From a virus: a stretch of 43,744 bases of DNA. The position numbers and the translations under genes were made by a program. Under the pieces are notes generated by a model that was not told the DNA's origin, made no database searches, and saw nothing but the letters and a program-made list of their open reading frames with translations. The stretch spans positions 1-43,744 of IMG/VR virus record IMGVR_UViG_3300046714_000400; one strand, written 5' to 3'. Of the stretch, positions 6,135 to 26,396 are shown piece by piece. How positions within the stretch are numbered: position 1 is the stretch's first letter; every line of letters starts with the position of its first letter.

Positions 6135-7196
6135 ATGGGCGCACTGACCCCTACTTTCCTCCTCGACCTAGAATCTCGGATGCAGTCGATCACCGAGCGC
6201 GAGTATCAGCGGCTCGTCGCCAACCTCTGGTGGCAGACGATCACGAAGGTCCGTCAGTCGCAGACGCGGCAGGAGCTCATCACGTGGCTTCTCTCGACTG
6301 CGATGATCCGCGACACGCAGAAGGGCGGACAGCTCTCGTTCGACGATCTCGTGGCGACATACACGCAGATCGAGAATAAGAACAGCGGCGCGGGGCTCGT
6401 GCTCAAGCGTGCGCAGATGGAGGACCTATACAACGGCATCGCCGGCGGCGAGGGCATGGACTTAGCCGGTGCGTGGGCGTCGGACATCGGTCAGTACATG
6501 GCGTACTGGCCGCAGAAGCAGGTCGCGTTCTTCCTGAAGAACGCTCATCTCACCGCGCCGAGCGGCGGATTCACCGGATACGACGGCGTCGCGTTCTTCA
6601 CGTCGAACCACCCCGTCAACCCGATGAACACGGGCCTCGGGACGTTCCAAAACATCTTCACCGGCGGCGCGAGCGGCAGCTACCCCGGCGCATGCCCGAT
6701 CGACGACGCGGTCGACATCGACGACGCGCTCGTCAACCTCAGCAAGATCTACAGCTACCTCGCCACGATCAAGATGCCCAACGGCGAGGACCCGCGGTTC
6801 TTGCGACCGCGGTTCTTGATCGTGCCGCCGCGCATGTTCCCGCGCGCGGTCCAGCTCACGAGCGCCAAGTTCATCGCGCAGACGAGCGGCTCCGGCGCCG
6901 GTGGGGCAGACGTCGAGGCGGTCGTTCGGGCGCTCGGGTACGCAGCGCCAGTGCAGGCGGACGAGCTCGCCGGCTTCGAATCCGACACCACGTTCTTTGT
7001 CGCCGCGGAGCAGGTCGCCGGCAGCACTCTCGGTGGCGTGCTCTACCTCGAGCGCGAGGCCTACCGCATCAACTACTACGGCCAGATGGAGGCGCCCGAG
7101 CTCAACCGCAAGGACGAACTCGAGTGGCACGTGAAGGGCCGCAACGTGGTCGCCGCGGGACACCCGTACCTCCTGTTCAAGTGCAAGGGCAGCTGA
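6135..7196 (+). CDS. Major capsid protein, Mu gpT-like
   Basis: Main shell protein of the head. The 353-residue sequence has the gpT pattern: an early EYQRLVANLWWQTITKVRQS segment, then REL..WLLSTAMI, a GFTGYDGVAFF..NHP loop, PRFLRPRFLIVPP and a C-terminal AYRINYYGQMEAPELNRKDELEW..KGRN. AGGAGA lies about ten bases before the ATG. It is followed directly by a tRNA gene, and a hairpin separates it from the gene before. Confidence 0.88.
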   Translation: MGALTPTFLLDLESRMQSITEREYQRLVANLWWQTITKVRQSQTRQELITWLLSTAMIRDTQKGGQLSFDDLVATYTQIENKNSGAGLVLKRAQMEDLYNGIAGGEGMDLAGAWASDIGQYMAYWPQKQVAFFLKNAHLTAPSGGFTGYDGVAFFTSNHPVNPMNTGLGTFQNIFTGGASGSYPGACPIDDAVDIDDALVNLSKIYSYLATIKMPNGEDPRFLRPRFLIVPPRMFPRAVQLTSAKFIAQTSGSGAGGADVEAVVRALGYAAPVQADELAGFESDTTFFVAAEQVAGSTLGGVLYLEREAYRINYYGQMEAPELNRKDELEWHVKGRNVVAAGHPYLLFKCKGS

Positions 7197-7240
7197 GCAC
7201 GTGAGCTGATCACGAGCGTCGCATCGGCGGCGCTCATCGT

Positions 7241-7312
7241 CGCAGCGTGGAGAAGGGGCATCTCGCCGCGTTCATACCGCGGAGATCGCCGGTTCGATTC
7301 CGGCCGCTGCAA
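7241..7312 (+). tRNA. tRNA-fMet-like (anticodon CAT), initiator type
   Basis: A full cloverleaf can be drawn. Acceptor arms 7241-7247 (CGCAGCG) and 7305-7311 pair at six positions, with an unpaired C1 and A72, the hallmark of bacterial initiator tRNA. T8 G9 follow; the D-stem GAGA/TCTC has A11-T24, also initiator-like. The anticodon stem CCGCG/CGCGG encloses TTCATAC with CAT at 7273-7275. The variable loop is AGATC, the T-stem GCCGG/CCGGC encloses TTCGATT, and the discriminator is A73. CCA is not encoded. Unlike the usual initiator, stem pairs 29-31 are G-C, C-G, G-C, not three G-C. It lies in the 127-base gap after the capsid gene. Confidence 0.85.
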
Positions 7313-7323
7313 TCGAGAGAACG

Positions 7324-7809
7324 ATGGCGTACCTCGACCTCACCGGATTCAAGGCCTCGTCGATCATGCCCGACGAAGACGTCGACGCGCTCAACACGCG
7401 TTACGCGGCGTTCTTCGCGGCGCAGCTCGACAACGAGTCCGCATGGATCGACGCGCGCTTGCGCAAGCGATACGACGTGCCCTTCGCGTCGCCTTATCCA
7501 AAGGCAGTCGTGCGCTGGCTAGCCGCGCTCGTAACGGAGAAGGCATATCTAAAGCGCGGCGTCGATCCCAACGACCAAGAGATGACGTCGATCTTCGAAG
7601 CGGCGAAGGACGCGCGCGCGGAGATCCTCGAAGCGGCGGACAGCGATACGGGCCTCTTCGATCTGCCGCTGCGCGCCGACACGACGGCGAGCGGAGTCTC
7701 GCGAGGGAGCCCGCTCAGCTACTCGGAGACCTCGCCGTACGTGTGGACCGATCAGCAGCTCGCCGTGGGACGCGTCGAGGACGGCGCGCGGAGGGGCACC
7801 GGTGGCTGA
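7324..7809 (+). CDS. Head-tail connector, DUF1320 / Mu gp36-like
   Basis: A 161-residue protein starting 11 bases after the tRNA, with GAGAG upstream of the ATG. MAYLDLTGF at the N-terminus, DALNTRYAAFFAAQLDNESAWIDARLRKRYDVPF in the middle and the following RWLAALVTEKAYLKRG match the DUF1320 (Mu gp36-like) pattern of small helical head-completion proteins. These act beneath the portal to join head and tail. Overlaps the next gene by eight bases. Confidence 0.75.
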   Translation: MAYLDLTGFKASSIMPDEDVDALNTRYAAFFAAQLDNESAWIDARLRKRYDVPFASPYPKAVVRWLAALVTEKAYLKRGVDPNDQEMTSIFEAAKDARAEILEAADSDTGLFDLPLRADTTASGVSRGSPLSYSETSPYVWTDQQLAVGRVEDGARRGTGG

Positions 7810-8200
7810 GGGCGCCGCAGAACTGCAGCGCTGGATCGCGAAGCTGCACGATCTCGAGCAGCTCCCGCAACGCGTCGCGCCGCTGGTGGCGAAGGCGCTC
7901 GAGCAGGAGCTCCTGCACAACGTCGCGCGCGGCGTCGGCCCCGATGGCGTGGCGTGGCCGCGCACGAAGGATGGACATCTCCCGCTGCAGCACACGGGGC
8001 GCGAGCTCACCGTGCGTGCGGTCGGGACGTCGATCGTGGCGCGGCTCGTCGGCGTCCATGCTCTCCATCACCGCGGCGCGGTGCGCGGCGGCGTGCGGCG
8101 GCCGATCCTGCCGAGCAGCGCGCTGCCCGAGCCGATGGTGCGCGCGATCCGGAACGTCATCACCGCGGCGCTCGCGCGCACGATGGAGAGCACGTCGTGA
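7802..8200 (+). CDS. Tail completion / virion morphogenesis protein
   Basis: A 132-residue protein, GTG start with GGAGGGG at 7790-7796. The pattern AAELQRWIAKLHDLEQL...ALEQELLHNVARGVGPDGVAWPRTKDGHLPLQHTGRE is that of the phage virion morphogenesis family (Mu gpG, P2 gpS), with the usual ..G.D..G..W...K.G..L..TG.L. core. Such proteins complete the neck or tail end. It lies between the connector and the tail terminator, as expected. Confidence 0.7.
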   Translation: MAEGAAELQRWIAKLHDLEQLPQRVAPLVAKALEQELLHNVARGVGPDGVAWPRTKDGHLPLQHTGRELTVRAVGTSIVARLVGVHALHHRGAVRGGVRRPILPSSALPEPMVRAIRNVITAALARTMESTS

Positions 8201-24528: not shown

Positions 24529-24563
24529 GCCGTGCTAACGTCGCGCGCGCGCTCAGGAACTGC

Positions 24564-24610
24564 TCGGCTTCCTAAGCCGAAGGTCCCCCGTTCGAATCGG
24601 GGCGGGAGCG
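24564..24610 (+). other. attP core: 3' half of tRNA-Arg (CCT)
   Basis: From the anticodon stem to the discriminator the sequence is tRNA-like: TCGGC/GCCGA stem (24564-24568, 24576-24580) with loop TTCCTAA and anticodon CCT at 24571-24573. AGGTC follows, then the T-arm CCCCG-TTCGAAT-CGGGG, acceptor strand CGGGAGC at 24603-24609 and discriminator G. The required 5' acceptor strand GCTCCCG is absent, so this is not a working tRNA gene. It lies 60 bases from the integrase stop. Integrases of this class often use tRNA 3' ends, and the phage copy would rebuild the gene after integration. Confidence 0.78.
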
Positions 24611-24642
24611 TAGAGATTCCGCGCGCTTGCAGATTTCGGTCT

Positions 24643-24672
24643 GTGTCCGCCGTGTCCGTTCGGTGTCCGCTC
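24643..24672 (+). repeat. Three GTGTCCG repeats, right of attP
   Basis: GTGTCCG at 24643-24649, 24652-24658 and 24663-24669, spaced 9 and 11 bases, about one helical turn each. They lie between the attP core and the integrase stop codon. With the left copy they resemble the arm-type sites that flank attP in lambda-type systems. Binding by the integrase is inference. Confidence 0.45.
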
Positions 24673-25882
24673 ACGATTCCTCCCAAGCCTCGGACATCGC
24701 TCGCGCGACCCCCCGGAGGCCTTCGGGGGCAAGGTGCGCATACCGACGCGTCGTGTCGATGTCTCGGTGTCCGAGCCAGAGCGCGACCTCCGAGAGCGTC
24801 AACGTGCGGCCCCAGGACCCCTGGATGAGATGCGACGCGCAGGTGTGCCGGAGATCGTAGAGCCGGACGTGCCGAGCGATCTGCGGTGCCCCCCAACGAC
24901 GCCAGCCGAGATCCCAGCTCTTCCCAAAGTGCGATCGGCGCGCGCCGGTCTTCGACGTAGGCGGCCTGAAGACGTACGCGGCGCCGACGCCAGGGTCGAG
25001 CTCGCGGAGTCGCCGAAGGGCCTCGCGCGCCGGCGGGAGGAGCGGTACCTCACGCGTCGTGCCGGTCTTCGTGGCCGCGACGACGAGATAGGGCTCGGCA
25101 GCATCGAGCCCACGCACATCGCGCCATCGGAGCCCCGCGAGCTCGTGCGGCGGTCGGAGACCGGTGTAGATCGCGACCGTCCACGCGAGTCGATCGCGCT
25201 CCGGGACCTCCACGCGATGCGTCTTGCCATTCGCGCTGCGGATGCCGCGCACGCCGCGAAGGGCATGCGTCGTCGCGAGGAGCGCGGTGATCTCGCCGAG
25301 CGTGAGCCATGCCCAAGGCTCTGCGTGCTTCGGCGGACGCTGGACGCGGGGGACACGAACATCGGCTGCGACGTTCGTCGCGATCCGACCGCCGTCGACG
25401 GCGGCGCGTAGACAGGAACGCAGAACGCGTAGCGCGTGTCGGATGGTCTGCGACGACAACGGGCGCTCGGTCGGCTCGGCCTTCTTGCCGCGCTTCGGTT
25501 GAAGAGCTCGCGCGTCGTGCACGAGTCGATCGAGCCATTGCACCACGTGCACGCGCGTGATGATCGGCAGAGGTAGCGTTGCGATCTTCGCCGGCGCGAG
25601 ATGCGTGCGCCACACGATGCGCTCCCGATCGATCCCGCGGATGAGCCCGCCGGTCTCGCGTCGCCGAAGCCATTCGAGACCCCACTCCCCGAGCGTGCGG
25701 CCCCCGGGCACCAGCGCATCATCGCCGAGCTCGCCGAGATGCAGCTCAACGGCGCGCTGCGCATCGGCCTTGGTGTCGTAGAGGCCGAGGCTGATCGTCT
25801 TCCCGCTCACGCGCGCTCGCGCGCGGAAGCGTGCGCCGTGCTTTGAGACGCCGCCCCCTCGGTGCTTTGCCATGTCCGGCAT
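24671..25882 (-). CDS. int: Tyrosine recombinase integrase
   Basis: Integrates and excises the phage at a tRNA-Arg gene. From ATG at 25882 it has 403 residues. Residues 10-45 hold the beta-type arm-binding start (ARFRARARVSGKTISLGLYDTKADA), then a SAM-like core-binding domain near 60-165. The catalytic domain shows R223 (TGLR), K252 (TKTGTTREVPL), R345 with H346 (LYDLRHTCAS), H372 (WLGHRD) and the nucleophile Y381 (RRYAHL). The first box II position is Tyr, a known variant. ATG 25873 is another possible start. Last gene of the leftward operon, one base after the previous stop. Confidence 0.92.
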   Translation of the reverse strand: MPDMAKHRGGGVSKHGARFRARARVSGKTISLGLYDTKADAQRAVELHLGELGDDALVPGGRTLGEWGLEWLRRRETGGLIRGIDRERIVWRTHLAPAKIATLPLPIITRVHVVQWLDRLVHDARALQPKRGKKAEPTERPLSSQTIRHALRVLRSCLRAAVDGGRIATNVAADVRVPRVQRPPKHAEPWAWLTLGEITALLATTHALRGVRGIRSANGKTHRVEVPERDRLAWTVAIYTGLRPPHELAGLRWRDVRGLDAAEPYLVVAATKTGTTREVPLLPPAREALRRLRELDPGVGAAYVFRPPTSKTGARRSHFGKSWDLGWRRWGAPQIARHVRLYDLRHTCASHLIQGSWGRTLTLSEVALWLGHRDIDTTRRYAHLAPEGLRGVARAMSEAWEES

Positions 25883-25883
25883 G

Positions 25884-26396
25884 CTACCGGGGTCGCCGCG
25901 AGATGTCGGCCTTCGCATGCGCGCGCCTCACGCGCGCGAGGATCGTCTCGTCGCTCTCGCGGCGTTCGTGCGGCGGAAGCCGGTTCGGCGGCTTCACGTC
26001 ACGATCCGCAATGCGCTCGACGGCGACGACAAGACGTTCCAGCAGATCGAGCGCGCGGTAGGCCGTAAGCGCGATGTGAACGCGGATCTCGTCACCGCCA
26101 TCGACCGCGTCCGCGAGCTCATCGGCGAGAGAGAGTGCGCTTCGGCGTCCCCGCTCGTATGCGTCGTGCAGCTTCTCCTCTCGCCGCAGTTCTGCGAGCG
26201 CATCCTCGCCCTGCCGGTCGCATTCTCGAAGCTCGCGATGGTGATCGTCGCAAAAGGCGCCCTGGACCGGATGCCTGAGTGCTCGCCATCGGAGGCACTC
26301 GGCGCAGTCGTTCGCGCGGCCGATGATCCCCTCTCGCATCGCGGCGCGCGTCCGGCAGATCGCGTCCCCGCGTGCCTCGAAGTCGGCAGGGGTCAT
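25884..26396 (-). CDS. Hypothetical protein with Cys/His pattern
   Basis: 170 residues. CAECLRWRALRHPVQGAFCDDHH near residues 31-53 could bind zinc; the rest is helical and charged. Overlaps the gene upstream by four bases and nearly touches the integrase. Not recognised; a directionality factor is possible by place but it is larger than most. Confidence 0.45.
   Translation of the reverse strand: MTPADFEARGDAICRTRAAMREGIIGRANDCAECLRWRALRHPVQGAFCDDHHRELRECDRQGEDALAELRREEKLHDAYERGRRSALSLADELADAVDGGDEIRVHIALTAYRALDLLERLVVAVERIADRDVKPPNRLPPHERRESDETILARVRRAHAKADISRRPR

Follow-up and report, generated by a model that had tools for sequence, protein, structure and literature searches.

A virus sequence that probably belongs to a soil phage of myxobacteria carries, between its major capsid gene and a connector-like gene, a tRNA gene of the initiator type in which one base pair of the anticodon stem is flipped (positions 7241..7312, + strand; tRNA positions 1-73). 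Positions refer to the window, the whole stretch of 43,744 nucleotides analysed from IMG/VR record IMGVR_UViG_3300046714_000400. Judged by ARAGORN, Rfam and covariance models, the gene is a real tRNA and its type is initiator. The ARAGORN check that the preliminary description had called for gives tRNA-Met(CAT) at 7240-7314, and Rfam RF00005 aligns end to end with 7241-7312, scoring 55.8 bits against a gathering score of 29 (E 1.7e-9). The sequence has the features of a bacterial initiator tRNA-fMet: a CAU anticodon with an encoded A73; a C × A at 1:72 (C1 at 7241, + strand; A72 at 7311) that is unpaired next to paired G2:C71 and C3:G70; and A:U at 11:24. C1×A72, G2:C71, C3:G70 and A11:U24 are listed as determinants of formylation (PMC7949028), a role that class-wide conservation also assigns to C1. 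All stems are fully paired with the exception of 1:72, and CCA is not encoded in the gene. The CAT anticodon, the unpaired C1-A72 and A11-T24 had been read exactly in the preliminary description. The MFE structure of the unmodified RNA is not a cloverleaf (z -1.4); this is not evidence against a tRNA, and MFE folding is uninformative as a tRNA test for this sequence.

The type assignment was examined with two covariance models, one built from 12 distinct Polyangiales initiators and the other from 20 CAU elongators, which comprised Met and Ile2 tRNAs of both host and phage origin. The phage tRNA scores best with the initiator model, 73.3 bits versus 51.8 bits for the Met/Ile(CAU) elongator model, so that the comparison on which the initiator claim had been staked comes out in its favor. 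The control host elongators L358 and L354 score the opposite way (54.6 and 43.5 bits with the initiator model, 85.6 and 83.0 bits with the elongator model), so the two models do tell the classes apart. That an elongator tRNA-Met or a tRNA-Ile2 (lysidine) has been mistaken for an initiator is extremely unlikely: its UUCAUAC loop and C30:G40 pair do resemble elongator tRNA-Met, but elongators have a pyrimidine at 11, a purine at 24 and a paired 1:72, where A11:U24 and C1×A72 are found instead, and the initiator model leads by 21.5 bits. Barring unusual host enzymes, the model comparison already refutes the elongator reading. The three pairs 29:41, 30:40 and 31:39 (3GC) are not all G-to-C, however; 30:40 is C:G, and the gene is therefore filed as an initiator-type variant rather than as a canonical initiator.

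The anticodon arm (7266..7282, + strand) reads CCGCG-UUCAUAC-CGCGG, with G:C at 29:41, C:G at 30:40 and G:C at 31:39. This C30:G40 pair is the M1 mutation (G30C/C40G) of E. coli tRNA-fMet, which lowers in vivo translation ~20-fold, weakens the A-minor contacts with 16S A1339 and G1338, makes GUG and UUG complexes ~10-fold less stable and abolishes discrimination against CUG (PMC11497404). The earlier suspicion that a stem departing from GGG/CCC might be weakly active is thus borne out more sharply than it was worded, as the change is a published one. A second suggestion, that an extra initiator would favor phage genes starting with GTG, fares poorly, because the M1 data on GUG and UUG predict the opposite; moreover, the head and tail genes in the window with clear starts mostly begin with ATG, which leaves only partly right the premise that many phage genes are GTG-started. 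The loop nucleotides U32 and C38 are as in the Labilithrix elongator tRNA-Met (L358, TTCATAC), while host initiators have CUCAUAA.

A relaxed initiator pattern finds matches in 47 of 57 Polyangiales genomes, and every true match has GGG/CCC and the loop CTCATAA; a pattern scan for initiators with the M1-type GCG/CGC stem returned none in 379 genomes of the Labilithrix phylum and none in 120 of a second phylum (499 in total). A complete scan of viral contigs, by comparison, finds C30:G40 with the same D-stem in 31. Among the M1-type tRNAs parsed in all (n = 36, two of which look like elongators), 1:72 is unpaired in 25. The nearest tRNAs to the window's belong to other phages (L076, 87.8%; L073, 84.7%; L338, 83.3%), whereas the best Polyangiales initiator is 74.3% identical. 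At 74% against 88% for a phage tRNA, a host-derived copy is ruled out.

Like its nearest neighbors, the tRNA has the D-arm GAGAAG...ATCTCG (D-stem GAGA/UCUC) and a missing or weak 1:72 pair. This D-arm pattern, which left the acceptor stem unconstrained, has matches in at least 119 viral contigs. It was fair to remark that elongators make up most phage tRNAs, yet initiator-like ones, judged by one D-stem motif, are also common there. In 53 of the 80 distinct members parsed among the matches listed, a set that was not phylogenetically thinned and may include a few elongators (some of the G:C cases), there is no standard 1:72 pair, the unpaired combinations being C:A (15), T:T (12), C:T (11), A:A (7) and others. 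In the same set 2:71 is paired in 77/80 and 3:70 in 79/80, and pairing is nearly universal in the remaining stems. Position 1:72 is paired in 665 of 686 further phage tRNAs taken from the fetched loci (21 not), a set likewise not thinned, and in 124 of 136 CAU elongators. The pair 29:41 varies (T:A 40, A:T 20, G:C 19), 30:40 is G:C in 70 and C:G in 8, 31:39 is G:C in 76, and the CTCATAA loop is kept in 64/80 among the matches listed. Formylation identity looks selected in this class of sequences. That conclusion rests on the contrast of 1:72 with the other pairs and with other tRNAs rather than on a column shuffle (positions 1 and 72), in which avoidance of pairing was not significant (27 paired versus 25 expected in the 80-tRNA set). 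Two Mesorhizobium phages provide further instances. In vB_MseS-P1 (L002, 4000-4074) an unannotated initiator-like tRNA with A1×A72 and a TGG/CCA stem sits within a CDS annotated as a transcriptional repressor. In Cp1R7A-A1 (L003, 3995-4072) an initiator-like tRNA-Met, the first of a 13-tRNA stretch, has an ACG/CGT stem, and its loop is UUCAUAC, as in the window's tRNA.

The gene's place between capsid and connector genes is as first described. Upstream lies the major capsid (head) protein gene (6135..7196, + strand; phrog_371, E 1.6e-12), and the gap between its stop and the tRNA, 7197-7240 (folding z = -2.1), holds a predicted 9-bp hairpin, GAGCGTCGC-ATCG-GCGGCGCTC (7214..7235, + strand). Downstream, the ATG of a conserved connector-like gene (7324..7809, + strand; a 161-aa ORF with the leader TCGAGAGAACG, identified by its gene order as in relatives) is 11 nt 3' of the tRNA, and a Neck1/tail completion gene (7802-8200, phrog_26) comes next. 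A consensus search found no promoter or intrinsic terminator at the tRNA site. The order of capsid stop, hairpin and tRNA recurs with the second-nearest tRNA (L073), although the major capsid gene that it directly follows belongs to another family (phrog_4523). A capsid gene is directly upstream in 7 of 89 initiator-like tRNAs of viral contigs (L072, L073, L256, L302, L348, L181 and L191; gaps of 5-291 nt), and was seen upstream of none of 57 CAU elongators among the matches listed, an incomplete control in which families come from the matches listed and ten of the longest ORFs were fully read. The difference (Fisher one-sided 0.028; 0.047 without L073) is suggestive of a capsid-gene adjacency of phage initiator-like tRNAs.

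In many relatives of the phage the capsid-connector gap holds a long hairpin of 15-30 bp, divergent in sequence, with z down to -5 and mostly without a T-run (L006, L008, L012, L014, L017, L021, L033, L037, L040 and L059). This hairpin is a candidate for an element conserved by structure, and may set capsid expression. It also raises the possibility that the tRNA acts mainly as an RNA-processing or 3'-end stabilising element between the capsid and connector messages, replacing or supplementing the relatives' hairpin. The strength of folding in that gap (z <= -1.8 in 17 of 20 gaps, which were chosen for length), the order common to the window and L073, and the capsid genes of several families found ahead of initiator-like tRNAs, set against the CAU elongators among the matches listed, would all agree with such a role. 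We nonetheless consider it unlikely: although any tRNA would suffice for it, the 1:72 mismatch has been retained along with initiator identity, and a capsid gene precedes only a minority of the initiator-like tRNAs of phages.

In IMG/VR, 66 relatives of the capsid protein were found; isolated phages yielded none. Relatives also occur in Polyangiales MAGs, one of them on a 276-kb Labilithrix contig (L206) that has a canonical initiator tRNA ~28 kb from the capsid relative. The soil phage probably infects myxobacteria (Polyangiales). A tyrosine integrase gene (24671-25918, - strand; phrog_1) lies beside a tRNA-Arg(CCT)-like segment (24542..24611, + strand; called by ARAGORN, below the Rfam cut-off), the 3' half of which is similar to tRNA-Arg(CCT) genes of Polyangiales (2-3 mismatches in 31 nt). 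This neighborhood indicates that the phage is probably temperate, with a putative attP at the tRNA-Arg(CCT)-like segment. The putative attP and integrase could help pin down the host. The initiator-type tRNA has no integrase next to it, and the integrase and tRNA-Arg fragment lie at 24.5-25.9 kb, which rules it out as a remnant of an attachment site.

Apart from the initiator-type tRNA, the phage has no full tRNA gene. None of the 66 relatives has a tRNA in the capsid-connector gap, so a conserved element of the phage group is ruled out as well; of the 29 relative contigs scanned whole, 28 lack tRNAs altogether. The sole match in these 29 (L390, the contig of L022) is marginal at 29.2 bits, is called tRNA-Pyl(CTA) by ARAGORN and is unrelated. 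On this distribution the gene is either a lineage-specific gain or the survivor of widespread loss, and, with no relative keeping it at the site, it is dispensable for the phage group. Absence from all relatives examined, together with the odd anticodon stem and the CCA that is not encoded, might be taken to mean a functionless, decaying passenger recently acquired from another phage. This seems very unlikely given that all stems but 1:72 are paired and that the same M1-type tRNA is present in at least 31 viral contigs.

We favor, with about an even chance of being right, a functional phage-encoded initiator that replaces rather than boosts the host tRNA-fMet. The tRNA would be transcribed within the head operon, cut from the message by ordinary tRNA processing and then given its CCA; charged with methionine and formylated, it would form a second, phage-owned pool of fMet-tRNA late in infection. 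With its M1-type C30:G40 arm and elongator-like loop (U32, C38), it would be a weaker and AUG-biased initiator in comparison with the host's. It would sustain initiation if host tRNA-fMet were scarce or cleaved by anticodon-arm nucleases such as VapC. The flip makes for a poor booster, which is why we prefer replacement of depleted or cut host tRNA-fMet as the purpose. A rather unlikely alternative is that the tRNA enlarges the fMet-tRNA pool for high late protein output, the stem change being tolerated drift. Formylation determinants are kept while 29:41 is free to vary, as this account would have it, and, provided that the operon is strong, its spot behind the capsid gene would yield a high dosage late in infection. 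Still, C30:G40 is a costly change in E. coli, the G:C found at 30:40 in 70/80 phage initiators indicates no free drift in the class, and relatives with the same capsid operon manage without the tRNA.

The evidence on nucleases cuts both ways for replacement. Enteric VapC cuts E. coli tRNA-fMet between A38 and C39 (PMC4105405); the phage tRNA has C38 and a changed stem, and 20 of the 57 Polyangiales genomes encode PIN toxins that resemble an fMet-specific VapC model, every one scoring below its curated cut-off. Against nuclease escape, A38 is not generally removed, as most phage initiators among the matches listed keep the CTCATAA loop. It also counts against replacement that phages facing a tRNA-fMet-cutting VapC generally avoid encoding that tRNA (PMC10264068). 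In addition, the roughly 20-fold loss of activity of M1 in E. coli means that the gene could contribute little.

Few features of translation are as conserved as the 3GC pairs, for whose study artificial mutants have been the usual material. Here, phage tRNAs present natural initiators in which the formylation mismatch is kept and the 3GC pairs are loosened or flipped, making the purpose of these pairs directly testable, and likewise viral initiation on a tRNA of its own; the window's tRNA is also a candidate counter to initiator-cleaving toxins. A broader idea, which we offer tentatively and think rather unlikely, is that phages keep their own initiator tRNA lineage, which retains formylation identity, abandons the near-universal 3GC stem and includes some natural M1 variants. 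Deployed from capsid operons, it would let late initiation run on an initiator specific to the phage, with an altered grip in the P site and resistance to host anticodon-arm nucleases. Phage T5, for one, carries a tRNA-fMet gene. Genes of this sort have been recorded in phages (PMC10747093), and the kind is hence already known; our literature search, outside which most subscription journals lay, found no description of natural M1-type initiators or 3GC variants, of a 1:72 pair missing across the class or of the adjacency to capsid genes.

The tRNA can be set against three known systems. With the initiator tRNA-fMet of bacteria (Polyangiales, E. coli) it has in common CAU, C1×A72, G2:C71, C3:G70, A11:U24 and A73, and it differs in having C30:G40 instead of G30:C40, U32/C38 in the loop, a GAGA/UCUC rather than GAGC/GCUC D-stem, no encoded CCA, and an identity of 74% at best. 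The fMet tRNAs of huge phages (PMC10747093) are named as the same kind. Other phage initiator-like tRNAs (L076, L073, L338 and the tRNA-Met of Mesorhizobium phage Cp1R7A-A1) share the GAGAAG...ATCTCG D-arm, the missing or weak 1:72 pair and a relaxed 29-31 stem; unlike the tRNA described here, such tRNAs mostly have G30:C40, and, where 2 kb is available on each side, about half are accompanied by further tRNAs in the fetched stretch. The laboratory mutant M1 of E. coli tRNA-fMet (PMC11497404) shares the flip of that one pair, the rest of the mutant being of initiator type, whereas the present tRNA is natural and phage-borne, with its loop and D-stem changed too.
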